Notes: a model not told the origin generated them from the sequence alone. Counted from the stretch's first letter, positions 29,732 to 44,577 are shown. The stretch is 55,082 bases of DNA from Thermococcus sp. (GCF_015523185.1 NZ_WAKV01000022.1:1-55082), one strand, 5' to 3'. Numbers and translations: made by a program.

Positions 29732-30220
29732 TCATCCGAGAACCTTTCGGCGGTAGCTCTCTATGACATCCCCGTATTCCCTCAGGAGAAATTCCTTGGT
29801 TACGGGTGTTCCCGCAGGATGGCTAAGTCCGGGGCAGAAAGAGTCCTCCTTCACGTAGATTTCCATCTTTTTTCCATGTTTAACGAAGATAAATGGATAG
29901 AGTCTGCAGGCGAGGGGCCTGTGGCTATAGATTCTGCACCTTTTCGTTTCGGGGTCGAGGAAGATACACGCCCCGTCGAAGGGTCTCTTTCTTATTGCGT
30001 AGCCTAGGAACTTGTCGCCACGGTAGAAGAGCTTCTCATGGTCAATGAACTCCCAGGCGTTGTAGCCGAGCTCCTCAATTTTGGCTATATCCTCATCCCG
30101 TAGGGGAATTTCAAGCTCATAACAGCATTTGCCACAGTTTTCAACGCATTTAAATTTAAAAGATGGGTCGTAGTCCACTTCAAGTGTTTCTAAATCAATG
30201 GTCGCGACCCATCTTTTCAC
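29732..30220 (-). CDS. YkgJ-family cysteine-cluster protein
   Basis: The 162-residue protein has C25, C29, C32 and C33 in CVENCGKCC, then FDGACIFLDPETKRCRIYSH and RPLACRLYPF, the signature of the YkgJ/UPF0153 zinc- or iron-binding family. The biochemical role is not established. It is the last gene of a probable operon with srp54 and a RAM-domain protein. Confidence 0.85.
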   Translation of the reverse strand: MKRWVATIDLETLEVDYDPSFKFKCVENCGKCCYELEIPLRDEDIAKIEELGYNAWEFIDHEKLFYRGDKFLGYAIRKRPFDGACIFLDPETKRCRIYSHRPLACRLYPFIFVKHGKKMEIYVKEDSFCPGLSHPAGTPVTKEFLLREYGDVIESYRRKVLG

Positions 30221-30224
30221 CAGT

Positions 30225-30464
30225 TCACCCCCGATATGTGCTGGCTATCAGAGTTTCGGTCATCTCGATTTCCTTTATTTTTCTGAGAGTTTCGTCGTGG
30301 AACTTGTCCAAGTCGTCAATGGTCGGGACTTCAACGCGAAGGATTATATCATATTCCCCGTAAACCCTGTACGCCTCCTTGACCCGGGGGTCATCCTTGA
30401 GCTTCTCATAGACTTTCTCTTCGTTTCCAGGATTAACAACTATCAAGACAAAGGCCTCAATCAT
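30225..30464 (-). CDS. Stand-alone RAM-domain (Lrp ligand-binding) protein
   Basis: The 79-residue protein consists of only the alpha/beta RAM domain ([38 protein letters not shown]). It lacks the helix-turn-helix and may bind amino acids by itself or join full Lrp proteins. It overlaps the end of srp54 by four bases, indicating translational coupling. Confidence 0.85.
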
Positions 30465-31807
30465 ATCCCAAACCCCCCAAGGTTGAATTTTTTGGCCATC
30501 TTGGCGAGTTTTCTTTTGTTCATACTCTTGAACATCTTCTTCATTTGGTTATACTGGTTTAAAAGCTCTCTGACTTCAGCGGTGCTGGTTCCGGAACCTC
30601 TGGCTATTCTCTTTATCCTTGAGTAGTTGATTATCTCTGGGTGTTCAAGCTCCTCTTCTGTCATGGAGTCCATAATCACACGGTATCTTTTCAGCTTCTC
30701 CTCACCAATCTTTATTGCGTCATCGGGCAGGGAGTAGCCGAGGCCCGGAATCATCTGGAGTATCTGCTTTAGCGGTCCCATCTTCTGCATCGCTTCAAGC
30801 TGGGCATACATGTCCTTGAGGTTAAACTTACCCTTGAGGAACTTCTCCACGTCCTCTTCCTTGAACTCCTGCTGTTTCTGGAGCTCTTCAATCTTCTCCA
30901 AGAGGCCTTGAATGTCACCGAGGCCGAGGAGCCTTGACACGAAGCGCTTGGGGTCAAAGGGTTCTAAATCGTCTATCCTCTCGCCGACTCCTATGAACTT
31001 AATCGGCGCACCGGTCGCGGCCACCGCCGAGAGGGCACCTCCACCCTTCGCGCTTCCGTCGAGCTTCGTCACTATTATCGAGCCTATAGGGGTTGCCTCC
31101 TTAAATGCCAGTGCCTGGTTGTAGGCCTGCTGGCCAATGGTCCCGTCTATGACAAGGATGACCTCATGGGGCTTTATTGCCTCGCTTATTTGCCTCATCT
31201 CCTCGATTAGTCCTTTTTCTTCCTTGTGCCTCCCCGCTGAGTCCACGATGATAACATCAACGCCCTTCTCGCGGAAGTGCTCAACTCCCTCTCTCGCGAG
31301 CTTAACCGCGTCCTTCTCCTCCGGATTTCCAAAGACCTCAATACCGTAGGGGTCAAGGAGCTGTCTGAGCTGATGGTAGGCTCCGGGACGCCAGGTATCG
31401 GAGCAGACGACGCCGACCTTGTAGCCCCTCTTCTGGAGGTATCTAGCTAGCTTCGCCACACTGGTCGTCTTTCCTGAACCCTGAATACCTACGGTGAGCA
31501 GGACTGTTGGCTTCTTCTTTATCTCGAGGGGCTTCGCCTCGGTTCCGAGGAACTTTGTGAGCTCCTCATAAACTATCTTGATTATGTGCTCCTTCCTGCT
31601 TACACCCGCGGGTGGTTCCTCCTCAAGGGCCCTTTTTTGTATCGTCTTCGTGAGCTGTAGGACCAGTTTAACGTTGACGTCCGCCTGCAGGAGGGCCCTC
31701 TGGATGTCCCTGACCACTTCATTTATCGTTGCCTCATCAACGGTTCCGGAACGGGCGAGTTTTTTAAGTGCATTGTTGAGGGCCTTTCCGAGCTTTTCTA
31801 ACGCCAT
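30461..31807 (-). CDS. srp54: Signal recognition particle protein SRP54
   Basis: The ATG at 31807 gives 448 residues: N domain (1-90), GTPase domain with GIQGSGKTT (107-115), [39 protein letters not shown], and an M domain with [20 protein letters not shown] and the RNA-binding [12 protein letters not shown]. It targets nascent membrane and secreted proteins to SecY. The frame continues upstream to 31942, but that part lacks a ribosome binding site. Confidence 0.96.
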
Positions 31808-32075
31808 CTCACCACCGCTACTATGATTGTTGAGAAGTTTATAAACGGTTGGGTGGGCAATCCCTGTATAAATGCATGCATTTTCTTGAAATGAGGATTT
31901 TATATCCCTGCTTTCTGAACAAATATGAGCATTAAAGTCCAAAAACCGCCCTAAGACATTTTTTGAGCGAGCATAACTCTGAAAATGTCATTCCTGCCAA
32001 AAACAGCGCTGAAAACCTTTTTAAACCGGAAAAAGCCTATAACATTATGGAGAGAATGGGAAGGGGGTGAGAGAC

Positions 32076-32177
32076 ATGATTTGGCCGATGGCCATGTATG
32101 AGTACATGCTCATGCGGGAGAAAAAGAGGAGGAAGCCCATTCCCGAGGAACTCGAGTACGTCGAGATGCTCGGGTGA
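32076..32177 (+). CDS. Possible 33-residue microprotein
   Basis: GGGGGTGAGAGAC precedes an ATG opening MIWPMAMYEYMLMREKKRRK PIPEELEYVEMLG (33 residues). The start region is rich in Met and aromatic residues, followed by EKKRRK and an acidic end. A TATA-like ACCTTTTTAAACCGG lies near 32010-32025. The stop codon runs into the promoter of the DUF89 gene. I do not recognise the product, but the initiation signals are good. Confidence 0.5.
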   Translation: MIWPMAMYEYMLMREKKRRKPIPEELEYVEMLG

Positions 32178-32216
32178 ATTATTTAAAGGCTTTTTCTATT
32201 TCCTTCCGGTGATACT

Positions 32217-33071
32217 ATGAGGATTCATCACGAGTGCATTGCATGTGCTGTAAACCAGTGTCAGAAGATAATCGAGATGAGTCTGACTGATGAAGCCTCC
32301 CGCAGGAGGGCAATGTTGTTCTCGCTGAAGAGTGCCTCGGAGCTTTTCTCTGAGGATTCCATTCCGGCTGTCGTCGGTGGCCTTCTTTTCCTTGACCTCT
32401 ACGGCTTTATCGGGAACGACGACCCCTTTGAGAACTACAAGAGGGTCTCCAATGAGGTTGCAAAAAGGCTCGTTGGTCACTTCAGTGGTGCTGACATGAG
32501 GATAGCGTTAAAGCTGGCAATAGCCGGTAATGTTGTTGACTTCTCGACCGGTTATAACCCCGAGAAGCTTGAGGGGGATATAAAGCAGGTTCTCGAAGGT
32601 GACCTTTACATAGACCACAGCGATGAACTTTTTGAGAGGCTTAAGCATGCGAAAAATCTCCTATACCTTGTGGACAATTGCGGTGAAATATACTTTGACA
32701 GGCTTTTCATTGAGCGACTACTTGAGGAGTTCCCTCATCTCGGAGTTACCGTGGCTGGAAAGGAAGGCCCGATAATAAACGACGCAACCGTTGATGACTT
32801 GGTCAATGCGGGCTTTGAAGAGCTCGCGGAGGTAATCTCGACGGGCTCACGGTTGCCCGGAACGCCTATTGAACACGTTTCGGATGAGTTTCTTAAGGTC
32901 TTTCACTCGGTGGATGTCATAATAGCCAAGGGGCAGGCCAACTTTGAAACCCTCAGCGAGCTTAATGATTCCAGGATTTTCTTCCTGCTGAAGGCTAAGT
33001 GTCCTGCGATAGCGAGGGAAATCGGCGTCCCAATGAGTTCCCTACTGTGCCTCAACCCGTGTCTTCGCTGA
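32217..33071 (+). CDS. DUF89/ARMT1-family damage-control phosphatase
   Basis: The 284-residue protein starts MRIHHECIACAVNQCQKIIE and contains the metal-binding DNCGEIYFDRL (DNxGE), VAGKEGPIINDAT and AKGQANFETL motifs of DUF89. The family dephosphorylates damaged phospho-metabolites in a metal-dependent manner. All key residues appear present. TATA-like AATTATTTAAAGG lies just upstream. Confidence 0.85.
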   Translation: MRIHHECIACAVNQCQKIIEMSLTDEASRRRAMLFSLKSASELFSEDSIPAVVGGLLFLDLYGFIGNDDPFENYKRVSNEVAKRLVGHFSGADMRIALKLAIAGNVVDFSTGYNPEKLEGDIKQVLEGDLYIDHSDELFERLKHAKNLLYLVDNCGEIYFDRLFIERLLEEFPHLGVTVAGKEGPIINDATVDDLVNAGFEELAEVISTGSRLPGTPIEHVSDEFLKVFHSVDVIIAKGQANFETLSELNDSRIFFLLKAKCPAIAREIGVPMSSLLCLNPCLR

Positions 33072-33149
33072 TTGTCGATATTATTTTTAACGAATGTCTA
33101 TCAGAAAGCTTTTTATACTTTGAAGTTGTATATATCTGTGGTGAGTGGT

Positions 33150-33359
33150 ATGTCGACGATTATTAAACGCGACCCCAAGAAGTTTTTGAGAGAGATGAGC
33201 ATCCACTATGGCGACGTGTGGAAAATGCCCTCAAGCAAATACCTTCTCAGGCCGGACTTTGTTGTTGTTGACCCCAAAACCGGAAAGAAAACGAAGGTCA
33301 GCTTCGTGTCACTTGATGACGGCGAGGTTGTCGGTGTCGTTTACGATGAGATGGGCTGA
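33150..33359 (+). CDS. Small hypothetical protein (69 residues)
   Basis: The ATG at 33150 behind GTGGTGAGTGGT gives MSTIIKRDPKKFLREMSIHY. The rest is a beta-rich segment (RPDFVVVDPKTGKKTKVSFV SLDDGEVVGVVYDEMG). A TATA-like GCTTTTTATACTTT is about 40 bases upstream. I do not recognise a family; the frame downstream of 33072 before the ATG is not supported. Confidence 0.6.
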   Translation: MSTIIKRDPKKFLREMSIHYGDVWKMPSSKYLLRPDFVVVDPKTGKKTKVSFVSLDDGEVVGVVYDEMG

Positions 33360-33438
33360 TTTCGTCTTTTGTCTTACAACTTCTGACTCTGGCCGGAAGT
33401 CATAAATAGGATCCTGTTTTATCTGACTCGGTGGAAGC

Positions 33439-34740
33439 ATGCCTGTTGACCTTTCCAATGAGGCACTCTATTTAGCGAGAAGCATCAAAGACCCATACCT
33501 AAGGGCCATAACCTACGCGAGAATCGGATATTATATGCACAGGATGAAAAACCCGCGCTATGGAGAAGCCTTCACAAGAGCCCTTAAAGCTGTGGCATCA
33601 ATTGATAACCCGGTTCTCCTTGTAAAGGCCCTCATTGAGGTCGCCACATTTCTCGGGAAGACCGGCTCCAAGAGCGCGACCAAAACGTTTGTTCAGGCTT
33701 ACGAATCAATTAAAACGTTCCCCCAACCGCTTAGGGATGAGATGCTTGAGGAGCTCGTACACAAACTTCTGGAACTCGGCAGGATTGACGACGCCTTCTT
33801 CTACGCCAAGGAGATTGAGAACAATGTTAAGCGCAACGATGCCCTTCTTAGGGTTCTCCACAATTACATTGGAGCTGGCAACCTCAGGAAGGCTAGGCTT
33901 ATTCTCGAGCTCATTGAGGACGAGCCCTGGCACTCAATAGCTGCTTACGAGGTTCTCAAAGAACACCTCAACAGGGAGGAGTTTGGCAGTGCCATAAGGG
34001 TGCTCTCCGAGTTCAGGAGCGAGTACTGGCTTGGTGAAGCTATGAAGGCGGTGGCCGTTCACCTTAAAAAGGCCAATGTTCCTGAGGGAACCTACGAGAA
34101 GTTCGTTGACGTCGCCCTCAGCATATCGTCCAAGGTTGACTTTGAGGTTTTGATGTCGTTCCTTGTTGGTGTGGCCTCGCAGGGAGAGGTGGACTTCGTA
34201 ATAGGGGTGCTCTCAAAGGTTCCGCGCGAGTTTCGCCCCAGCCTTCTAAGGTCAGTTGTGCAGGCCGTTCTTGACAGGCCTGAGCTCCTTGAGAGACTGA
34301 TTGATAGGCTAATCGGCGACGAGAAAGAGCTCGTTATGAACTCGATACTTGATTCCCTTCTTGAAAGGGAGCCAAGTAGCAATTATCGCGAACTCGTTAA
34401 GAGAATCGGCTCTGAAACCGACAGGGAGAGGATAATCGTCAAGGCGGTCCGCTACCTGTCGAAGCTCCACGCCTATGATGATGCATGGGAGCTCGCTTCG
34501 AAGGTCACCGACCCATACCTTCGCTCGCTGGCCTTCGGGAGCATTGCCGTTGAGAAGCTCAAGGAGAACGACGTTGACGGAGCGATTGATGCGTCCCTTG
34601 AGGTCAAGGACCCCCGCTGGGGTTCCTGGCTTCTCAGCGAAATCCTTGCCAAAGTCCTTGAAGTTCAGGCCGGTGGCGAGCTGAAGGAGGACATCGAGGA
34701 GAGAGCAGAGGCACAGCGCAAACTGTGGGAGACCAGCTAA
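33439..34740 (+). CDS. Alpha-solenoid (TPR/HEAT-like) repeat protein
   Basis: The 433-residue protein is almost entirely helical, made of degenerate 30-40 residue helical repeats. A recurring turn, IKDPYLRAITYARIGYYM (about 16-33), VTDPYLRSLAFGSIAV (about 357) and VKDPRWGSWLLSEILAKV (about 388), is shared with the 354-residue protein at 44769. It probably is a protein-binding scaffold. It precedes the MTA phosphorylase gene by 42 bases. Confidence 0.7.
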   Translation: MPVDLSNEALYLARSIKDPYLRAITYARIGYYMHRMKNPRYGEAFTRALKAVASIDNPVLLVKALIEVATFLGKTGSKSATKTFVQAYESIKTFPQPLRDEMLEELVHKLLELGRIDDAFFYAKEIENNVKRNDALLRVLHNYIGAGNLRKARLILELIEDEPWHSIAAYEVLKEHLNREEFGSAIRVLSEFRSEYWLGEAMKAVAVHLKKANVPEGTYEKFVDVALSISSKVDFEVLMSFLVGVASQGEVDFVIGVLSKVPREFRPSLLRSVVQAVLDRPELLERLIDRLIGDEKELVMNSILDSLLEREPSSNYRELVKRIGSETDRERIIVKAVRYLSKLHAYDDAWELASKVTDPYLRSLAFGSIAVEKLKENDVDGAIDASLEVKDPRWGSWLLSEILAKVLEVQAGGELKEDIEERAEAQRKLWETS

Positions 34741-34782
34741 GGTTTTAAAGTCCTTCCTTCAATTCTCTTTTCAGGTGATACC

Positions 34783-35586
34783 ATGCCGAGGATAGCGATT
34801 ATTGGGGGCTCTGGTGTCTACGACCCGAAACTGCTTGAAAACATAAGGGAAGAGGTAGTTGAAACGCCTTACGGAACCGTTAGGGTCAAGGTTGGAACGT
34901 ACAAGGACGAGGAAATAGCGTTCCTCCCCAGACACGGCGAAAAGCACAGTGTTCCGCCCCACAAGATAAACTACCACGCCAACATCTGGGCTCTCCATGA
35001 GCTCGGCGTTGAGAGGATTCTGGCGACTTCTGCAGTCGGTTCGCTCAATCTCGACATGAAGCCAGGCGACTTCGTAATCCTCGACCAGTTGATGGACTTC
35101 ACAAAAACCCGGCACTACACCTTCTACGACGGTGAGGACAGCCCGCACGACAGGAAGTTCGTTGCCCACGTGGACTTCACCGACCCCTACTGCCCCGAGC
35201 TCAGGAAGGCCCTAATCACCGCCGCAAAGGAGCTTGGCTTCACCTATCACCCCACCGGAACCTACGCCTGTATGGAGGGGCCGAGGTTCGAGACAAGGGC
35301 CGAAATCAGGGCCTTAAAGATACTCGGTGCGGACGTCGTTGGCATGACCCAGTGTCCCGAGGCCGTTCTCGCGAGGGAGCTTGAGATGTGCTACGCGAGC
35401 GTTGCCATCGTGACAAACTACGCCGCAGGAATAAGCAAGGAGAAGCTCACTCACACCGAGGTAGTTGAACTGATGGCCCAGAAGGGCGAGGAGATAAAGC
35501 TCCTCCTCATGAAAGCCGTCGAGCACATTCCGAAGGAACGTCGCTGTCCGTGCAAGGATGCCCTCAAGGGTGCAACGGGCGGGTGA
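34783..35586 (+). CDS. mtnP: 5'-methylthioadenosine phosphorylase / purine nucleoside phosphorylase
   Basis: The 267-residue protein shows IGGSGVYDPKLLENI, LPRHGEKHSVPPHKINYHAN, SAVGSLNLDMKPGDFVILDQ, CMEGPRFETRAEIRAL and GMTQCPEAVLARELEMCYAS, matching the MTAP group of purine phosphorylases. The C-terminal CPC (in RRCPCKDAL) corresponds to the CXC disulfide motif of hyperthermophilic MTAPs. It recycles methylthioadenosine or inosine-type nucleosides; close relatives differ in substrate. Confidence 0.9.
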   Translation: MPRIAIIGGSGVYDPKLLENIREEVVETPYGTVRVKVGTYKDEEIAFLPRHGEKHSVPPHKINYHANIWALHELGVERILATSAVGSLNLDMKPGDFVILDQLMDFTKTRHYTFYDGEDSPHDRKFVAHVDFTDPYCPELRKALITAAKELGFTYHPTGTYACMEGPRFETRAEIRALKILGADVVGMTQCPEAVLARELEMCYASVAIVTNYAAGISKEKLTHTEVVELMAQKGEEIKLLLMKAVEHIPKERRCPCKDALKGATGG

Positions 35587-35691
35587 TGTTCTTTTCTTTT
35601 CATTCTCCCTCTAAAAGGTGCTTACGTTGGAAACTCAAGGTTAAAGAAAGTGTTTAATAGTAGGGCGACCTAATTCTCCCCGGTGATGGGA

Positions 35692-37319: not shown

Positions 37320-37619
37320 AGACTTTGCATTACAAAGTTTCATCAAAGTTCGTGATTCTTCATTAAGGCTCCCGTACCTAAAAGGATTTCACGATAAATT
37401 TGGAGTATTAACGGGCGGATTCTGCTGGAGAGTCCCCTCTTGAGAGGTTCACTCTCGCCGCGCTCCTTCGGAGCGTTAAAAAGCTAGAACCCATCCAAAA
37501 AACACTCTTCAAAAAGAATCCACCCATAAATGACACTTTAAAGAGAAATCCTGCCATAAGAAGCTTTCAGCCAAGAATCACGAACCTTAATTAAACTTCG
37601 CACAGGCAAAAGTTTGTAA
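37320..37619 (-). repeat. tRNA-trailing repeat, copy 3 (behind the tRNA-Gly fragment)
   Basis: On the minus strand the repeat begins immediately after the CCA of the tRNA-Gly 3' half with TTACAAACTTTTGCCTGTG and a GCGAAGTTT arm, then AATTAAGGTTCGTGATTCT. It aligns with 152-445 over nearly its full length and contains the hairpin CGCTCC-GAA-GGAGCG. The original chromosomal tRNA-Gly locus therefore had this repeat before the element integrated. Confidence 0.7.
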
Positions 37620-37663
37620 TGGTGCGGTGGCCGGGATTTGAACCCGGGCCAGCGGCGTGGCAG
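37620..37663 (-). repeat. attL: 44-bp tRNA-Gly 3' half
   Basis: The sequence repeats 44501-44544 exactly and includes the encoded CCA, acceptor 3' strand, T arm and 3' anticodon stem of tRNA-Gly. The match ends at CTGCC, the start of the anticodon loop. It lacks the tRNA 5' half and so is not a functional tRNA. Confidence 0.93.
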
Positions 37664-38504
37664 TTGGAAATCGGAAACAGAGCAAGCAAAGCGTCACAAT
37701 AGTAAAGCGGAGCTGAAAGCAAAACTTTTGAGCGAAATAAAGCGCAAGCAGAGCGAATTTGAAGAGTGGATTTGGACAACAAAGCTACAGCAGAAACAGC
37801 AAAAGCGGTATATAAGAACCATCTCGAGGATTTGGACGGTGGAGGACCTCGAGCGGGCGATGCAAGGAAGCAAAAACGACCGTTTGGCGCTCCGTGCTTT
37901 CATACGGTTTTTGGAGGAAGAAGGATACATAGACGAGTACGAAGCCGGGCGGTTCAGGAAAATCGTTGAGTTGCCACAGACAGGCGTTGACACCCGCATT
38001 TACAGCGACGCGGATATAAGAAAGCTCTTCAGAAAAGCGCAAATAAAGAACGACAAGACAAAAGAGCTTTACCTCAAGCTTGTGGTTTATAGCGGATTGA
38101 GGAAAATCCACGCCCTTGAGGCGTTCAACCGCCTCGCGGCGGGCACGGAGTTCAAAAAGCTTGGAAACATAGCAGTACTCGATTTGAACATACAGCACAA
38201 CACAAAGAAAGCAATCGTGTGCGTGTGTCCCGCCCAGCTCGCCCTGGCGATTCAGAAGCACGGAACAACGCTTTCCGCCAACCAGGTGCACAAACTCAAC
38301 CAAAAAGGCGTACTTTTCAACGCAATCAGGAAGTGGTTCTACACGACCGCCCGTCGCCTTGAAATACCCACTGACGTAGTTGATTACTGGCAGGGGCGCT
38401 CTATTCGCTCAGTTGGAGCAAAACACTACCTTGACATGCTCGAAATGACAAAAATCTACTACTCCCGCGTTGCGAAATACATCAGCGACAACATACCCGT
38501 ATGA
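37638..38504 (+). CDS. Integrase C-terminal part, int(C), of a split SSV-type tyrosine recombinase
   Basis: About 280 residues beyond the att site carry the catalytic half of a tyrosine recombinase: YSGLRKIHAL (first Arg, near residue 155), a Lys in HNTKKAIV, IRKWFYTTAR, QGRSIRS and the tyrosine in KHYLDM (near 264). The frame joins in phase to int(N) at the shared NPGQRRG segment, giving an intact enzyme of about 345 residues upon excision. The TTG start listed here is inside the att core and is probably not used. Confidence 0.9.
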   Translation: MNPGQRRGSWKSETEQAKRHNSKAELKAKLLSEIKRKQSEFEEWIWTTKLQQKQQKRYIRTISRIWTVEDLERAMQGSKNDRLALRAFIRFLEEEGYIDEYEAGRFRKIVELPQTGVDTRIYSDADIRKLFRKAQIKNDKTKELYLKLVVYSGLRKIHALEAFNRLAAGTEFKKLGNIAVLDLNIQHNTKKAIVCVCPAQLALAIQKHGTTLSANQVHKLNQKGVLFNAIRKWFYTTARRLEIPTDVVDYWQGRSIRSVGAKHYLDMLEMTKIYYSRVAKYISDNIPV

Positions 38505-38531
38505 GTATCGATGTGTCCCATGCCTTTCAAA

Positions 38532-38546
38532 AATCCAGTTTTATTA
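38532..38546 (+). promoter_or_regulatory. Element promoter box (copy a)
   Basis: AATCCAGTTTTATTA lies 44 bases before the ATG at 38578. TCCAGTTTTATTA recurs 45 bases before the ATG at 42926, the same distance, which suggests a common promoter or operator of the element. Confidence 0.5.
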
Positions 38547-38577
38547 TATTGTTTACTATACTATATTGGTGGTCGAA

Positions 38578-38862
38578 ATGCAGGGCGCGAAAATACAATA
38601 TCTTGTCCATCCTAAAATTTTATTTCCTTTCCTGAGTAGTAAAATTGGGGTCGGTGGACCCGGCCCCTTTGACTTGCTTTCGGAGTTGAAGAGATACGAG
38701 GTGGGCGACATGGAGAGTAAGAAAGAATATATAAAAGCCTTGCGGCCCGACGAGGAGGAAAGCGTCCTGCGTTGGGCGGCGGCTACGGGTTTCGACGTCG
38801 AGGGCGCCCTCGAAGTGCTCAGAAAGCGCTACTACGACGCTATGGGGGCGTGGGAGCTATGA
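38578..38862 (+). CDS. Element hypothetical protein (94 residues)
   Basis: The frame is open from 38470, but the ATG at 38578 is preceded by TTGGTGGTCGAA and by a promoter box shared with the gene at 42926, so it is the best start (MQGAKIQYLVHPKILFPFLS). A second, well-placed ATG with GAGGTGGGCGAC is at 38710 and would give 50 residues. The C-terminal half is helical (RPDEEESVLRWAAATGFDVE). Function unknown. It overlaps the next gene by four bases. Confidence 0.6.
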   Translation: MQGAKIQYLVHPKILFPFLSSKIGVGGPGPFDLLSELKRYEVGDMESKKEYIKALRPDEEESVLRWAAATGFDVEGALEVLRKRYYDAMGAWEL

Positions 38863-39017
38863 CATACCTCCCGTACGAAATCAAGAAACTCATACAACAG
38901 AAAGAGGACGAGCTGTTCTGGGCGCAGTTCAACCCTGAAAAAGTGGTAAAGGGCGAAACGGACAGGCTGAGGGCGGAGATAAAGACACTGAAGCGCTTGT
39001 ATTGGGAGATGGTCTGA
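38859..39017 (+). CDS. Element small protein (52 residues)
   Basis: The ATG overlaps the previous stop codon (ATGA). The product, MTYLPYEIKKLIQQKEDELF and WAQFNPEKVVKGETDRLRAE, ends in a charged helix, predicted helical throughout. Translation is probably coupled to the upstream gene. Function unknown. Confidence 0.65.
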   Translation: MTYLPYEIKKLIQQKEDELFWAQFNPEKVVKGETDRLRAEIKTLKRLYWEMV

Positions 39018-39218
39018 ATGCGCGTCAGGACGGACGACCTGTTCGCCCTGGCGGACGCGCTGACGGTTTTACGGGATGACGAGGATGTGGACGTCCTGTA
39101 TCGTCAGAAAATAGCTGACAGGCTTGAAGAACTGTATTGGAGGGCGCTGGAAGCATGGCGAAGCGAACGCTTGTCATTGAAAAAAGTATACCCCCCGAAG
39201 CACTTCGACAGGTCGTAG
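39018..39218 (+). CDS. Element small protein (66 residues)
   Basis: It starts directly after the preceding stop codon, with GGGAGATGG nearby as a binding site. The product is a single helical domain (LFALADALTVLRDDEDVDVL; RLEELYWRALEAWRSERLSL). It overlaps the next gene by 64 bases. Function unknown. Confidence 0.6.
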   Translation: MRVRTDDLFALADALTVLRDDEDVDVLYRQKIADRLEELYWRALEAWRSERLSLKKVYPPKHFDRS

Positions 39219-39403
39219 AACTGTTCAAAAACGCGGACTGGCGGGATTTCAGATACGTGGTTGTCGCCTGGCTGGCGTACTGGCACTTCAGAAAGAACAA
39301 GCGACTGCGCTTGATTCCGCTCAGCGTTTCCATAGCCGCCGCCCTTTTCAAAAAGAAGCCGCTCGAAGTGGATTCAGAGGATTTCGAGGCCATTCCCATT
39401 TGA
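39155..39403 (+). CDS. Element protein with two hydrophobic segments (82 residues)
   Basis: The ATG at 39155 gives MAKRTLVIEKSIPPEALRQV. Hydrophobic stretches YVVVAWLAYWHF (about 35-46) and LIPLSVSIAAALF (about 53-65), separated by RKNKR, suggest a small membrane-associated protein. It is the last gene of a four-gene run and is followed by a CTTTTCTTTTTT terminator-like tract. Function unknown. Confidence 0.6.
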   Translation: MAKRTLVIEKSIPPEALRQVVELFKNADWRDFRYVVVAWLAYWHFRKNKRLRLIPLSVSIAAALFKKKPLEVDSEDFEAIPI

Positions 39404-39447
39404 CTTTTCTTTTTTGACACTCCTAATTACTTTTATCTCGCTAAAAC

Positions 39448-39459
39448 ATTTTTATATAT
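39448..39459 (+). promoter_or_regulatory. Element TATA box
   Basis: CATTTTTATATA lies about 30 bases before GGTGACATGG and about 58 bases before the ATG at 39512. It starts a new transcription unit after the four-gene run. Confidence 0.5.
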
Positions 39460-39511
39460 GAACAAATAAGTTTATTACGTCTGGTGACATGGAATTATCG
39501 AGGTGGGCGGC

Positions 39512-39676
39512 ATGTATCTCGATGAAATAATATCTGAAAAGGAACGCGCGATTGAGAAGCGCAGAATGTTCCCGCGCGACGAATATGACGTTATCAAGAA
39601 CATTCGCGAGGAAGAAGAGCTTCAAAAGCTATACCGCGATCGCGCTGAATATTATTACAGAAAATTCTTCCCCTGA
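39512..39676 (+). CDS. Element small charged helical protein (54 residues)
   Basis: GAGGTGGGCGGC precedes the ATG. The product MYLDEIISEKERAIEKRRMF, PRDEYDVIKNIREEEELQKL, then YRDRAEYYYRKFFP is highly charged and helical. A 13-codon frame starting at 39489 (also with a GGTG site) ends inside it and could be a leader peptide. A CATTTTCTTTTCT tract follows. Function unknown. Confidence 0.6.
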   Translation: MYLDEIISEKERAIEKRRMFPRDEYDVIKNIREEEELQKLYRDRAEYYYRKFFP

Positions 39677-39738
39677 CCCATTTTCTTTTCTCCGTGAACA
39701 TTTATTTCATATTTATCATTATTTTACGGTGATGCGGT

Positions 39739-39996
39739 ATGAACGATTGCGAGCAAAAAATACGCGAGCTTGAGCAAAAAGTTATTTACGCGCTCGACGA
39801 GCTTGATGACCTTTACCGCGCCTTTGGAGCGGCAGAGGACGCGGAGGGGCGCCTCGTCCTCGCCCGCCTCGAGAAAATCGAGAAGGACGTAGCTGGAATC
39901 AAGAAGGCAATCGATTACGACGCGCAGAACATGAAGAGCAGACACCTCGCGCGCGTTTATGCGATTGTGAAGAAGCTTGAGCGGAAAGTTGAATAA
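39739..39996 (+). CDS. Element coiled-coil protein (85 residues)
   Basis: The protein has heptad-like coiled coils (KIRELEQKVIYALDELDDLY; VLARLEKIEKDVAGIKKAI). Its C-terminal ARVYAIVKKLERKV resembles KTFAIAKKVERHL at the end of the 142-residue coiled-coil protein of the same element, so they are likely paralogues. TATA-like CATATTTATC and GGTGATGCGGT precede the start. Confidence 0.65.
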   Translation: MNDCEQKIRELEQKVIYALDELDDLYRAFGAAEDAEGRLVLARLEKIEKDVAGIKKAIDYDAQNMKSRHLARVYAIVKKLERKVE

Positions 39997-40022
39997 GTTA
40001 CGATAAGCCTCAAAATAGAAAA

Positions 40023-40190
40023 TCAAGGTAAGAAACCCTTCTTTTCTTCGACTTTGAGGCCCTCACGTAGAACGTCCTTGATTTCCTGCAGCATTTCCTT
40101 TATTTCTTTTATATCCTCTTTCATTTCTCTATTGTGCCTTTCTATCTCTTCAAGTTTCCTCTTCATTTCCTGCAACTCAGAATCTTCCAC
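40023..40190 (-). CDS. Element coiled-coil microprotein (55 residues), coupled to the 501-residue gene
   Basis: On the minus strand a GTG start lies eight bases after the TGA of the 501-residue gene, with GAGGGGGTGAT as the binding site. The product, VEDSELQEMKRKLEEIERHN and REMKEDIKEIKEMLQEIKDV, is a nearly perfect coiled coil followed by LREGLKVEEKKGFLP. Translational coupling suggests that the two proteins function together, but no function is known. Confidence 0.6.
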   Translation of the reverse strand: MEDSELQEMKRKLEEIERHNREMKEDIKEIKEMLQEIKDVLREGLKVEEKKGFLP

Positions 40191-40194
40191 ACCA

Positions 40195-41700
40195 TCACCC
40201 CCTCGAGCTGAAATAATCCGCTATTGTTGCGAGACTGAACTTGAGATAATCCTCAAAGCCCTTTCTGTCAAGGACGATGAATGGGGCCTTCCCTGGGTCA
40301 GTTATCAACCGAGACGTGATGCCACGCTTATTCATGTCTGCGAGTACTTCCGCAACCGCACTTTCATTCAATTCCAGCTTTTGCAGAAGTTCCTCGTATT
40401 CCCTTCTGGCCACGCCCGCATCGTATAAGTTACCGACTGTGAGTATGGTGTAAAGTACACCAAACTTCTGCGCATAATACCCAAGGTTGGCCGGGCGTTT
40501 TGTCTTTGTTGCGAGATACTGAAAGACCTCTATTGGGGCTTTGAAGACGTCATATATTGGCCTGGCACGGGAATCCCATTCGGTATCTTGCATGGCCAGG
40601 CCATATCTTTCAAGTTCACTGAAGAGTCTGAGAGCATCGTCTCTCAATGTTGTTTTCACGAGGAAGTTCGAGAACATCAAGATACTTGGGTTCTCGGGAG
40701 GCTCCATATAGTCCAGATCAAAATAGTCATACCTACCGAGCACTCTCGCACTCTTTGCCGCCTTGAGTATTGGATCCTCCTTTTTGGTATATCCACCGCC
40801 TGTTGTTGGTGTGTACTCGTATTCTTTGAGAACGACCTCAAGTGAGAAGTGATCCGGTCTATACCAAAGCGACCCATAAAGTATTATCCATAGCTTATCG
40901 CCATATTCTCTGGCGAGTTCCTCAAGCTCCGCCTTGTGCTCTCTGATACGTTTGAGAATAAGCTCGTGTCCAGCTTTCAGGCCTCTTTCGCTCGGGCTTG
41001 CAAAGGCTTTCCTGGCGTATCCTGTCCCTTTCCTTGAGATATCAACCAAATTGAGTCGTTGGAGAATAGATAGAACCTGTGGTCTTATATTTACACTCTC
41101 GTACTCATTTGGGGCCGTTGGCCCGGTCATTGGATTGTAATGGACGCGGACTTCCACGGGGAGGTCCCTCGAAATATAAACCATTCCAAGTGCATTCAAG
41201 ACATCGTCAGCAAAGTTCTCAAGACCGTATTCCTCGAGCTCTTCAATTATATGGTTGATTTCTCTCTCCGAGGCACCAACAAAAACTTCCGGGGGTCTTT
41301 CTTTGTTTGCTCTCGAAAAGTATGGATAATCTGGAGGTATTCCAAGATCCCTACGGAGTTCGTGTTCAAAAGACTGGACGCTATCAACAACTTTTATTCT
41401 TTTTCCATTGACAATGATTTCATCAACCTGCTTTGGATATTTTGTTGCTATGATATATCTGTAATCAAATGGGTTCATAGATAATTTCTTCGCATCTCTT
41501 GCCACGTCGCCAGTAACAACAACCTCAACACCGACGGAGATGTTTCCTTTTCTTCCGGCGACATCAACACGGCCCCAACCACCCTCAGGTATTTTTACCG
41601 GGGCTTCTGCTGTTGCAGTAAAACCATAAAAACGAAGTAGATCTACTACTTCCATTTCTATAATATCATTGTAGGGCTTGTGACCACTCCTTTGATCCAT
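40195..41700 (-). CDS. Large element protein with nuclease-like N-terminus and winged helix
   Basis: I do not recognise a named family for this 501-residue protein. Residues 12-115 resemble a PD-(D/E)XK-type fold: a helix with E15/E17, GRVDVAG (D46), VGVEVVV (E59), then FDYRYIIATKYPKQVDEI; the usual lysine is a valine. Residues 200-245 (VLSILQRLNLVDISRKGTGY, ASPSERGLKAG) look like a winged helix. It is the only long gene transcribed against the rest of the element, so it could be cargo: a defence or restriction-like function, or a replication protein. Confidence 0.6.
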   Translation of the reverse strand: MDQRSGHKPYNDIIEMEVVDLLRFYGFTATAEAPVKIPEGGWGRVDVAGRKGNISVGVEVVVTGDVARDAKKLSMNPFDYRYIIATKYPKQVDEIIVNGKRIKVVDSVQSFEHELRRDLGIPPDYPYFSRANKERPPEVFVGASEREINHIIEELEEYGLENFADDVLNALGMVYISRDLPVEVRVHYNPMTGPTAPNEYESVNIRPQVLSILQRLNLVDISRKGTGYARKAFASPSERGLKAGHELILKRIREHKAELEELAREYGDKLWIILYGSLWYRPDHFSLEVVLKEYEYTPTTGGGYTKKEDPILKAAKSARVLGRYDYFDLDYMEPPENPSILMFSNFLVKTTLRDDALRLFSELERYGLAMQDTEWDSRARPIYDVFKAPIEVFQYLATKTKRPANLGYYAQKFGVLYTILTVGNLYDAGVARREYEELLQKLELNESAVAEVLADMNKRGITSRLITDPGKAPFIVLDRKGFEDYLKFSLATIADYFSSRG

Positions 41701-41790
41701 ATGGGATCACCGATGGTATTTTTGTTATCTTTTTGATATAATCTTTTCTGTCACTGGTTTGTATAGATGATTGCTATCGAAATGATTGAT

Positions 41791-41900
41791 TATAGAACGT
41801 TTCTTTCTATATCATTCGAGTTTGTTTTTCTTCAGAAATGTTCGATGAATGACCCGGGTTGTGTCCGACACAGGGGTGATATAGAAAGAACTTTTCTATA
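41791..41900. repeat. 24-bp inverted repeat in the divergent intergenic region
   Basis: Arms at 41791-41814 and 41877-41900 match in 21 of 24 positions when one is reverse-complemented; the core is TTCTTTCTATATCA. Between them lie ACCCGGGTTGTG and the short palindrome TGTGTCCGACACA. The region separates two divergent genes and may be an operator or part of a replication origin. Confidence 0.6.
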
Positions 41901-41955
41901 AGAGTTCCCGGGTTCACTCACCGAGCACAGGGGGTCTATCACGAACATATACCAC

Positions 41956-41966
41956 AATTTTATATC
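41956..41966 (+). promoter_or_regulatory. TATA box of the 42015 gene
   Basis: AATTTTATATC is centred at 41961. Initiation about 26 bases downstream would fall at 41985-41988, leaving a leader of nearly 30 bases with GGGGGTGGA before the GTG at 42015. Confidence 0.5.
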
Positions 41967-42014
41967 AGTAGAAGCAACTATTATATGACGGTTCTCGATG
42001 TGGGGGTGGAACAC

Positions 42015-42527
42015 GTGAAGAAAACATACTACGCAAAACTTCATTTGAGCGAAGACACGAAAAAACACAAACCCGACGACGTCGAGCGCCTCGCAGGATT
42101 ATTCTACCCTGAACATCCAGTACGCCGCTCGATGTTCATTTTTCTGTTGAAAAAGGCGGCGCGGGAAGGTTTTGCGGTCGAGGATTGGTTCTTGACAGTC
42201 TGCGAGTTCGTTGAGGAGTATGAGGGCGTCGATTTGAGCGACGTTCGCGAGTATTACATCGATCAGCGCGGTTATATGAGCACGACGAAGCTCAATAATG
42301 AGTCCCAAGCCCGCGCTGACGAAATCCTCAAAGAACAGCGGCGCGGCGATGGTTACAGTTTCTACAACTACGTAAAAATCTATAATCGCGTCGTAAAAGA
42401 TATGCGCGTCGCGGGACTCTTGTATAAGAAAGACGACGTTTACAAGTACTCCCGTGAGTTCAAGAAGATACTCAAAGCGATGATCGAGGCCCTCGAGGAT
42501 TTTGAAGAGAGCGGGGGCGAAGAATAG
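42015..42527 (+). CDS. Element hypothetical helical protein (170 residues)
   Basis: A GTG at 42015 behind GGGGGTGGAACAC is preferred over the ATG at 41985, which lies at the predicted transcription start. The protein (MKKTYYAKLHLSEDTKKHKP) is helical, with HPVRRSMFIFLLKKAAREGF and a C-terminal part containing SFYNYVKIYNRVVKDMRVAG, LLYKKDDVYKYSREF that looks like a winged-helix wing. It may bind DNA. Function unknown. Confidence 0.6.
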   Translation: MKKTYYAKLHLSEDTKKHKPDDVERLAGLFYPEHPVRRSMFIFLLKKAAREGFAVEDWFLTVCEFVEEYEGVDLSDVREYYIDQRGYMSTTKLNNESQARADEILKEQRRGDGYSFYNYVKIYNRVVKDMRVAGLLYKKDDVYKYSREFKKILKAMIEALEDFEESGGEE

Positions 42528-42571
42528 CGCCAATCACCTTTTTCTCTCTTCTATTATAGAATGCGAGGGTT

Positions 42572-42733
42572 GTCACACAAACTTTTTCGACAGCGAAAGC
42601 TTTATTTCGAAAAATTTTCGAACGAGGTAGGTTCACTCGAACGTCACATGTCACACGTCACACAAAGTTTGTGACTTGAGAAGAAGGGTTGGGGCGCGGC
42701 ATCGATTTTGTTCGTGTGACGTGTGACACTTGA
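42572..42733. other. Origin-like array of GTCACAC heptamers
   Basis: Three tandem heptamers GTCACAT, GTCACAC, GTCACAC (42643-42663, period 7) are followed by AAAGTTTGTGAC, and two heptamers in the opposite orientation, GTGTGAC GTGTGAC (42714-42727), follow 50 bases later. A further GTCACACAAAC is at 42572. The 20-base blocks 42644-42663 and 42714-42733 are inverted repeats matching in 18 of 20 positions. Iteron-like arrays of this kind are typical of plasmid origins or autoregulated promoters. Between 42528 and 42925 there is no gene. Confidence 0.6.
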
Positions 42734-42879
42734 CACCCCACCCCCTTCTATATATGCAAATGTATACATTCGTGCGGTTTCATTTCTTGTGTATTTTTCA
42801 TCGTAGAACGACCTCTTTGATACAAAAATCACGAAAAAAAGTAAGGTTGTCAACACACCCCTCGCATGTTTGTCATTTA

Positions 42880-42895
42880 TTCCAGTTTTATTACT
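42880..42895 (+). promoter_or_regulatory. Element promoter box (copy b)
   Basis: TTCCAGTTTTATTACT lies 45 bases before the ATG at 42926 and matches the box at 38532 over 13 bases at the same distance from the start codon. Confidence 0.5.
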
Positions 42896-42925
42896 ATTTT
42901 TGTCTTATTTTACTGGTGGTGCACG

Positions 42926-43747
42926 ATGCGTAAGTCAGAACGTCAAATCTTCGTTGAAAGCCTGCACGATGCCCGTGTAAAATCAGCTCGTGTAATCGAG
43001 CAGTTCATGAAGTACGCGACGAGGAACCTGAACGCGCGTATTGAGAACGCGAACGTCGATATTGCAGCAGCAATGCGCGACGCTGTGATTTCAACGCTCT
43101 TCAGCTTCTATCAAAACTTCTTTTTCACAGAGAAGTTCAAGCAGGCTGGTATCATGAAAGAGAGCGAGTTCATAAACTTCTCTCAAGTGCACTTCAACTT
43201 CCCCGCCGATGAAATCGAGAAAATTTTTCTGAGCTTTGATTTCTACGCTACAATCTACGATCCAGAGCAAAAAAGAGTAACGGGTCTTGTTTTGGGTGAG
43301 ATAAACACGTATGGCGGCTCCGCCCGGCAAAAATACGTTTCCTTCGGCCTCGACCGCATTCAATTCCTGCGCAGGGGCTTGGCGGAGGCGGGGAGCGAAT
43401 ACAAGAACGTCAAGTTCGTCTACGTAATCATTGCAGACGTTTCAGACTACGACAAGCACGCGCTCGAGAGCTACGCGCGCGAGAAGGGCATTTCCCTCGT
43501 GATTGTCCCATACAGCCCGCTGAAATCGGTTTTCGACGCGGTGGCGGTGCGCGTGTTCTCGACGAATCAGAAGAAGCTCGACGTGTTCAAATTGTTCATA
43601 GAAGAGCTTGCTGCGGTTGTTTTCACTGAAAAGAGCGAGGGGGCGGGCGAGGAGGGCGGTGCAGCTGATTTGAAGCGGCGCGTTGTGACGAGTGACGAGT
43701 TGCTTGACGACTTCATCGACGTCGTCTACGTTGCCCCCGCCCCGTAA
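42926..43747 (+). CDS. Element hypothetical protein (273 residues), possible nuclease fold
   Basis: The ATG at 42926 behind CTGGTGGTGCACG gives MRKSERQIFVESLHDARVKS; the upstream part of the frame is AT-rich and spurious. The first 100 residues are helical. Residues 103-200 alternate strands and helices, with FDFYATIYDP, LVLGEINTYGG (E125) and VKFVYVIIADVSDYDKHALE, a pattern seen in PD-(D/E)XK nucleases, but with N in place of the catalytic K. It directly follows the origin-like array and may act there. Confidence 0.6.
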   Translation: MRKSERQIFVESLHDARVKSARVIEQFMKYATRNLNARIENANVDIAAAMRDAVISTLFSFYQNFFFTEKFKQAGIMKESEFINFSQVHFNFPADEIEKIFLSFDFYATIYDPEQKRVTGLVLGEINTYGGSARQKYVSFGLDRIQFLRRGLAEAGSEYKNVKFVYVIIADVSDYDKHALESYAREKGISLVIVPYSPLKSVFDAVAVRVFSTNQKKLDVFKLFIEELAAVVFTEKSEGAGEEGGAADLKRRVVTSDELLDDFIDVVYVAPAP

Positions 43748-43789
43748 CCCTTTTCTTTTCTCTTCTGATTTTATTATGGTGATTTCATC

Positions 43790-44218
43790 GTGGCGGAGGA
43801 GAAACAACAGCTCGAAAACGACGAGTTTGAAGTACTCTACAAGAAGCTGAGAACAGCATCACGGAGACTCTACGTCGTTGAGGAGGAGATAGACGAGCTT
43901 TATGCCCGAGTTGAACGCCTCGAAAAGGAGCAGAAACGGGAAAAGGACGAGAAGAGGGCAGAAATCGAGGAGTTGAAAAAAGTTGTCGATGGAATTATTG
44001 AAGAAATCAAGACATTGAGAACAGATATCGTAACGCTTGAAGAGAAAGTAGATGACCTCGACCGACGCCTTGTTGATTGTGAAGAGGATATAAAGAAGCT
44101 TTCTGACAAGCTTGATGATCTCAAGAGCTACACAGACAAAACCTTTGCCATTGCGAAGAAAGTAGAGCGTCATTTGGGTCTTGAAGAGGATGAAAAGAGC
44201 AGACGACGCCGCCGTTGA
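43790..44218 (+). CDS. Element coiled-coil protein (142 residues)
   Basis: A GTG start behind GGTGATTTCATC gives an almost wholly coiled-coil protein (EEEIDELYARVERLEKEQKR; KTLRTDIVTLEEKVDDLDRR; EDIKKLSDKLDDLKSYTD) with a basic end (KSRRRRR). Its C-terminal KTFAIAKKVERHL resembles that of the 85-residue protein. Oligo-pyrimidine tracts lie on both sides. It might act as a structural or partition-type factor; this is inference only. Confidence 0.65.
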   Translation: MAEEKQQLENDEFEVLYKKLRTASRRLYVVEEEIDELYARVERLEKEQKREKDEKRAEIEELKKVVDGIIEEIKTLRTDIVTLEEKVDDLDRRLVDCEEDIKKLSDKLDDLKSYTDKTFAIAKKVERHLGLEEDEKSRRRRR

Positions 44219-44294
44219 TTTGCCGTCCATTCCTCCGTTTTTTCTCGTTTCTTTTCTCGCTGATTGTTGATAATCGAATAGTAAAAGATATAGG

Positions 44295-44307
44295 GGGCCA
44301 GCGGCCC
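44295..44307 (+). promoter_or_regulatory. GC hairpin upstream of int(N)
   Basis: GGGCC-AGC-GGCCC lies about 40 bases before the int(N) ATG, just after a TATA-like AAAGATATAG. GTTCGTACTGTGAAC follows. Either element could be an operator controlling integrase expression. Confidence 0.35.
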
Positions 44308-44347
44308 AATATGTTCGTACTGTGAACACACTGTGGAGGTGTGGAGA

Positions 44348-44557
44348 ATGAGTCATCGAGTTGATGTTCACATAAAGATAAGCTCGGCTCTGCTCGCTCA
44401 GATTCGCAAAAGAGGCTATCAGCTCAGCTCTTTTTTCGAGGCTGCTGGCTTGGCTTATTTGGCTTTGCTCGGCTCAGAAAGCTCAGATTTTGAAAAAAGC
44501 TGGTGCGGTGGCCGGGATTTGAACCCGGGCCAGCGGCGTGGCAGGCCGCTGTCCTAG
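44348..44557 (+). CDS. Integrase N-terminal part, int(N), of the split SSV-type recombinase
   Basis: The ATG at 44348 behind GGAGGTGTGGAGA opens MSHRVDVHIKISSALLAQIR. The frame runs through the att core (CGGRDLNPGQRRG, antisense to tRNA-Gly) and stops after four host-encoded residues, RPLS. In the excised circle it would continue into int(C). The first 40 residues look like a ribbon-helix-helix motif (a strand, then two helices with SSFFEAAGLAYLAL). Integration inactivates the gene, as in SSV1-type elements. Confidence 0.85.
   Translation: MSHRVDVHIKISSALLAQIRKRGYQLSSFFEAAGLAYLALLGSESSDFEKSWCGGRDLNPGQRRGRPLS
44501..44544 (-). repeat. attR: 44-bp repeat within tRNA-Gly
   Basis: This is the second copy of the 44-bp direct repeat and forms the 3' half of the intact tRNA-Gly gene, here supplied by the element so that the tRNA is restored after integration. 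Confidence 0.93.
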
Positions 44558-44577
44558 CCAGGCTAGACTACCACCGC
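44501..44577 (-). tRNA. tRNA-Gly(GCC), integration target
   Basis: On the minus strand, acceptor GCGGTGG pairs with CCACCGC, the anticodon stem GCGGC/GCCGC encloses CTGCCAC (anticodon GCC), the T arm is CGGGTTCAAATCCCG, and CCA is encoded. A TATA-like AAATTTATAAAC on the minus strand (near 44609-44620) is at the right distance upstream. The gene is functional and reconstituted by the element's att copy. Confidence 0.95.

Follow-up and report, generated by a model that had tools for sequence, protein, structure and literature searches.

The integrated element and its split integrase

The window, that is, the whole 55,082-nt stretch of Thermococcus sp. DNA analysed in this study, contained an integrated element of 6,881 bp at positions 37620-44544 (Table 1). 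The element was bounded by two identical 44-bp direct repeats (attachment site, att) spaced 6,881 bp apart, and the right copy was located inside a tRNA-Gly(GCC) gene, where it spans the 3' end and the 3' half of the tRNA up to the anticodon. Between the repeats, we found the two parts of one SSV-type integrase gene, several small genes, a putative nuclease gene (orf501m), and the genes orf180, orf276, and orf142. The same tRNA-Gly site was unoccupied in genomes G037 (locus L117) and G057 (L116), the latter being the closest relative, with a 93% match to the window on the left side (30000-35587) and a 90% match on the right side. These empty sites indicate that the insertion is real, and an exact 44-bp repeat around both halves of one integrase, in a tRNA also used by a related element, rules out a chance repeat.

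Joining the N-terminal part of the integrase, int(N) (44348-44544), to the C-terminal part, int(C) (37664-38501), across att gave an in-phase and stop-free reading of 345 aa, with a GGAGGTG ribosome-binding site upstream of the start codon. The C-terminal part matched PF16795 (Phage_integr_3) with an E-value of 3.6e-21, which passes the curated threshold. It also matched the PHROG integrase family phrog_5127 with an E-value of 3.9e-32. Additionally, the integrase keeps the residues that are invariant across 25 archaeal integrases, including R212, K247, R288, and Y332. The locus thus shows the features that define archaeal type I (SSV-type, suicidal) elements, namely an att inside the integrase gene, an in-phase split, and an att in a tRNA that is kept intact. 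Split integrases of the SSV type are well known in Thermococcales (PMC8371274, PMC6972569). A first-pass annotation of this DNA had proposed 44-bp att repeats in tRNA-Gly, an integrase split in phase across the att core, and an integrated element of circular type with a split SSV-type integrase. All of these were borne out by the exact repeat in only two copies, the intact tRNA and the empty site in relatives, the stop-free join, and the PF16795 match.

Table 1. Features of the integrated element and its insertion site (window coordinates).
Feature	Position	Strand	Evidence or remarks
Left att core copy, 44 bp	37620..37663	none	Exact direct repeat of 44501-44544; two copies in assembly
int(C), catalytic part of SSV-type integrase	37664..38504 (stop included)	+	PF16795, phrog_5127, R212/K247/R288/Y332; open frame starts upstream in att
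orf50, small protein	38710..38862	+	Open frame with upstream GAGGTGGG; no convincing family
orf52, lineage marker after int(C)	38859..39017	+	62-68% identical homologues at same place in G042, G019, G023, G037; 53% in G059, G067
orf66, lineage marker	39018..39218	+	54-63% identical homologues in the same six elements as orf52
orf82, lineage marker	39155..39403	+	57-68% identical homologues; 7 of 94 genomes
orf54, small protein	39512..39676	+	Open frame after GAGGTGGG
orf85, coiled-coil protein related to resolvase partner of larger elements	39739..39996	+	56% identity over 27 aa in L075, E 2.2e-6
orf55, short coiled coil	40023..40190	-	Open frame
orf501m, putative PD-(D/E)XK nuclease with winged-helix regions, cargo	40195..41700	-	Homologues, predicted structure
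Inverted repeat between orf501m and orf180	41790..41901	none	25-nt arms, 88% complementary
orf180, winged-helix protein of pRT1/pP12-1 family	42015..42527	+	170 aa from likely GTG start
Palindrome with TGACGTGTGAC repeats, candidate origin or operator upstream of orf276	42643..42734	none	24-nt arms, 88%
orf276, ORFan	42926..43747	+	273 aa from likely ATG; open frame and ribosome-binding site
orf142, coiled-coil protein adjoining int(N)	43790..44218	+	54% identical homologue at same place in G042 element
int(N), N-terminal integrase part, ends in att	44348..44544	+	GGAGGTG before ATG 44348; 345-aa join; 74% identity over 42 aa in G042
Right att core copy, 44 bp, within intact tRNA	44501..44544	none	Exact repeat
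tRNA-Gly(GCC), target gene, intact	44501..44577	-	ARAGORN, Rfam

A 26-nt inverted repeat (88%) was present immediately beyond the left att, at window positions 37335-37360 and 37573-37598. The intergenic stretch holding it is 590 bp long, and only about 140 bp at the unoccupied G037 site.

Larger Hma-bearing relatives and the shared ends

Relatives were sought with the rejoined integrase among 94 Thermococcales genomes, and seven strong relatives were obtained (E-value of 1e-40 or better), followed by a drop to about 1e-29. In the maximum-likelihood tree, the integrases of the window and G042 were grouped at 100/99 support within an eight-member clade (99/98) formed by the window and the seven relatives, i.e., the elements of G042, G001, G019, G023, G037, G059, and G067 (loci L058, L074-L079, and L145). 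The integrases of pT26-2, pGE2, pTN3, Sulfolobus pXZ1, and other Thermococcales fell outside this clade, where the branches are partly unresolved and the root serves for drawing only. Integrase identity to the window was 56-57% for G042 and 36-41% for the other six, all with a split integrase gene.

The G042 element (L058; 17,570 bp) occupies the same tRNA-Gly(GCC) with an identical 44-bp att. The elements of G023 (18,877 bp) and G037 (19,334 bp) are inserted in tRNA-Arg and that of G067 (18,337 bp) in tRNA-Ile; these were the only targets identified among the six more distant relatives (approximately 18-21 kb). The integrase halves of the G001 element lie about 21 kb apart, and the G059 contig begins inside int(C), with the left att outside the contig. 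The unusual compactness noted in the first-pass annotation is upheld, at 6,881 bp versus 17.6-19.3 kb for the four relatives in which both att copies were measured (G042, G023, G037, and G067). Beyond that annotation, the element proved not to be isolated, since a lineage of larger elements exists and one of them uses the same tRNA-Gly and att.

All seven relatives carry HmaABC genes between the integrase halves, as called in G042 by the PADLOC models for HmaA (2.8e-187), HmaB (8.4e-151), and HmaC (4.3e-133), and in the other six by homologous genes. Hma (helicase-methylase-ATPase) is a candidate defence system (PMC8565338). In addition, six of the seven encode a serine resolvase together with a small coiled-coil protein as its partner. 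An operon ending in a UvrD-like helicase was found in five of the six more distant relatives. The window element has neither HmaABC nor the resolvase nor the UvrD-like helicase operon. On the basis of its integrase and end module, it is assigned to this lineage as a compact Hma-less relative and not as an Hma carrier. In the literature searched, neither the Hma-bearing lineage nor such a small member was found described, and the lineage may already figure in the main paper on suicidal integrases (Badel et al. 2020, 10.1093/molbev/msaa041).

Six relatives (G042, G019, G023, G037, G059, and G067) have orf52, orf66, and orf82 next to int(C), arranged as in the window element; these three genes were not found in the G001 element. 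In particular, orf82 was present in exactly seven of the 94 genomes, including that of the window, always together with this element lineage. Among the seven relatives, orf142 and orf501m are common to the window and G042 elements only. The proteins shared by these two elements are 54-74% identical, and synonymous sites of orf82 and orf142 are saturated between them. Two intervals differ: that of HmaABC in G042 holds three very short frames in the window element, and that of the resolvase, the coiled-coil protein, and a putative membrane protein in G042 holds orf180 and orf276, which have no counterpart in the seven larger elements. This comparison indicates that the ends and some interior genes are inherited and that two interior intervals differ. 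A 284-aa protein of G042 at the same place as orf276 was considered as its counterpart and rejected (z -0.4). The similarity of orf85 to the resolvase partner reached a shuffled-score z of 14.6, and 9.3 against G042, values that may be inflated by coiled-coil composition.

Several features of the larger elements were also recorded. The UvrD-like operon of five Hma elements encodes proteins of 152 and 669 aa, both without a Pfam match, followed by the helicase. The orientation of the resolvase and its partner relative to the int(C) and Hma genes differs between L076, L077, L078, and L079 on the one hand and L058 and L075 on the other, as if segments had been inverted. The G067 contig (L078; 18,546 bases) consists of one element throughout, with att copies 82 bases from either end, which is compatible with both an integrated and a free form.

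Interior genes and the palindromes

Homologues of orf501m occurred in 15 of the 94 genomes (own included), mostly as solo genes in chromosomes, and the homologue in the G042 element is 59% identical. The AlphaFold model (pLDDT 62.7) gave high Foldseek match probabilities to the Bax1, McrC, and Can2 nucleases, none with an E-value below 0.001. The N-terminal alpha-beta arrangement and the conserved G-R-x-D-V ... G-V-E residues are typical of PD-(D/E)XK nucleases; a PDB sequence search with orf501m gave no usable match. The ratio of nonsynonymous to synonymous substitutions (dN/dS) was about 0.09 versus the nearest homologue (G056), which indicates purifying selection. Since most homologues stand alone at differing chromosomal positions, orf501m is probably a passenger and may be a defence system of a single gene. 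In four genomes, the orf501m homologues (L052-L064) have the same neighbours, of which one is a nucleotidyltransferase-like gene and the other resembles, by eye, seryl-tRNA synthetase. The homologue in G060 is broken by a frame change, and the match in G040 contains an in-frame stop.

The orf180 protein was 29.5% identical to a protein of plasmid pRT1 and 30.1% to one of pP12-1 (E-value of about 1e-7; z of about 22 for both) in the alignment made here, and the family is also present in several Thermococcales genomes. A low-confidence single-sequence model of its C-terminal region has a winged-helix-like H-E-E-H arrangement; a PDB sequence search with orf180 gave no usable match. For orf276, no homologue was detected in the 94 Thermococcales genomes, GTDB contigs, IMG/VR, plasmids, or PDB. 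Between the two genes, the palindrome contains three of the four matches to TGACGTGTGAC (at most one mismatch) in the window, versus 0.4 expected, and the DNA fold of 42540-42800 had a z of -3.05. This layout is as expected for a regulator or initiator gene with its site, and may point to a role in replication. If the element replicates alone, orf180, orf276, and the intervening palindrome would be the likeliest replication module. pRT1 and pP12-1 differ from the window element in carrying putative replication proteins that are absent here, and neither plasmid was among the integrase search matches. No element protein resembled the Rep of pRT1, the Rep-Arvir/DUF7845 initiator of pRT1-type rolling-circle plasmids (z at most 2.6), and orf276 and orf501m were rejected as candidates for a Rep of this type, as no similarity was found, although orf276 may still be a remote homologue.

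In agreement with the first-pass annotation, no capsid, packaging, or known replication family was matched in the element by Pfam, PHROG, and other family searches. Likewise, IMG/VR contained no relative of orf276, orf180, orf501m, or the integrase in exact-peptide-pattern scans, which would miss distant relatives. A virus, or a satellite of a known virus, was rejected on these two results, at the sensitivity of the pattern scan. The viral pTN3/TKV4 elements ('Yamaviridae') share a split integrase in Thermococcus with the window element, and differ in size (18.3 kb) and in having a capsid protein, a packaging ATPase, and an MCM protein. Their double jelly-roll capsid protein and packaging ATPase had no family match in the element, and the best pTN3 ORF reached z 6.2, with the short orf82. 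In a search for CRISPR spacers against the element, seven genomes gave matches of 24-37 nt and one of 120 nt, the latter to an orf501m homologue. None of these lay in a repeat array, under a first-look filter that may miss spacers.

Nature, origin, and mobility of the element

These results suggest that the window holds, with good probability, a small, plasmid-like integrative element from a Thermococcales lineage in which an SSV-type ('suicidal') tyrosine recombinase performs the integration. As read from the sequence, a circular form had an intact integrase gene with attP inside it. By recombining attP with the 3' half of tRNA-Gly(GCC), the integrase rebuilt the tRNA and split its own gene into int(N) and int(C). 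The lineage is characterized by conserved ends, with intC-orf52-orf66-orf82 to the left and intN to the right. Between them is an exchangeable interior, where the seven other known members have HmaABC and this copy has the putative nuclease gene orf501m together with orf180 and orf276. After integration the element would be trapped, and its excision would need a related integrase in trans, as experiments with TKV4/pTN3 and SSV2 suggest: excision of TKV4 by the pTN3 integrase takes place both in vitro and in vivo (PMC5495485), and SSV2 is excised once an intact integrase is supplied (PMC8371274). By this analogy, the G042 integrase, with its identical att, would be a natural candidate helper.

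A different origin, for which we see a limited chance, is that the element arose by deletion from a larger one with Hma genes, which lost the Hma operon and the resolvase before or after integration and left a non-replicating remnant. The site, att, and end gene order shared with the 17.6-kb G042 element fit this explanation, as does the resemblance of orf85 to the coiled-coil partner of the missing resolvase. However, the open frames of the element are intact, including the joined integrase without stops, and, with an identity of only 54-74% to the G042 proteins, it is not a recent deletion of the G042 element. Moreover, a deletion removes genes but adds neither orf180 nor orf276, which lack counterparts in the larger elements, so that at least one gain or replacement must have occurred if the two genes were not already in the ancestor. 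An internally deleted copy of a larger element, which the first-pass annotation had named as contrary to its reading, is thus matched at the shared ends and contradicted by the interior, where both intervals hold genes absent from the relatives.

The first-pass annotation had left the choice between a minimal integrative plasmid and a satellite. The plasmid-like nature is favoured, and positive evidence for a satellite was lacking, as no packaging gene, shared virus genes, or, at the sensitivity of the pattern scan, IMG/VR relatives were found. A satellite would need a larger element or a virus in order to be replicated, excised, or transferred, like pSSVi, which responds to SSV2 in Sulfolobus. 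The small size, the lack of a capsid or known replicase, and an att identical to that of a larger relative would suit such a lifestyle, and Sulfolobus has small plasmids with an SSV-type integrase, for example pXZ1 (6,970 bp). No co-resident helper was identified in this genome and no packaging or structural gene is shared, so that we regard a satellite as quite improbable. Like the window element, pXZ1 is small and integrative and encodes an SSV-type integrase (27% identical). It differs in having a protein of about 1,077 aa, and beyond the integrase no gene common to both was detected. Gene loss from a member of the pT26-2 family is very improbable. The two share a split SSV-type integrase of the same Pfam domain, and the att of pT26-2 likewise occupies the 3' half of a tRNA (PMC6972569). 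In contrast, pT26-2 elements span 17-38 kb with seven core genes (PMC6972569), none of which was recognized here. The integrase lies outside the pT26-2/pGE2 group (26% identity), and no element protein convincingly matched a pT26-2 ORF (best z 5.1).

A small integrative plasmid is the most likely nature of the element, with replication of its own as a possible property. Four observations weigh against this reading. The 44-bp att core was present in the whole assembly only as the two integrated copies, and a circular form or attP copy was not seen. No recognized replication initiator family was matched among the element proteins in the family searches. The proposed replication role of orf180 derives only from its association with plasmids, which have other proteins as their presumed initiators. 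Finally, orf276 has no homologue, and therefore its coding status rests on the open frame and the ribosome-binding site. More speculatively, and with rather low likelihood, the lineage could represent suicidal-integrase vehicles for exchangeable defence cargo, of which the 6.9-kb copy would be near-minimal and replicate via orf276 as a new initiator, helped by the winged helix-turn-helix protein orf180, at the TGACGTGTGAC palindrome.

The assignment links a compact, orphan-looking element to an integrative lineage that moves a candidate Hma defence system around Thermococcales. With members of 6.9 and 17.6 kb in the same tRNA and att, the needs of a minimal vehicle, the swapping of cargo, and excision in trans by relatives become testable. 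The element could also be a first step towards a small vector for site-specific integration in Thermococcus.

With regard to the insertion site, a different element of 10,676 bp was observed in the same tRNA-Gly(GCC) of G045 (L080, 968-11694), encoding a more distant SSV-type integrase, an MCM helicase, and a C5 DNA methylase, which indicates that tRNA-Gly(GCC) is a shared insertion site.

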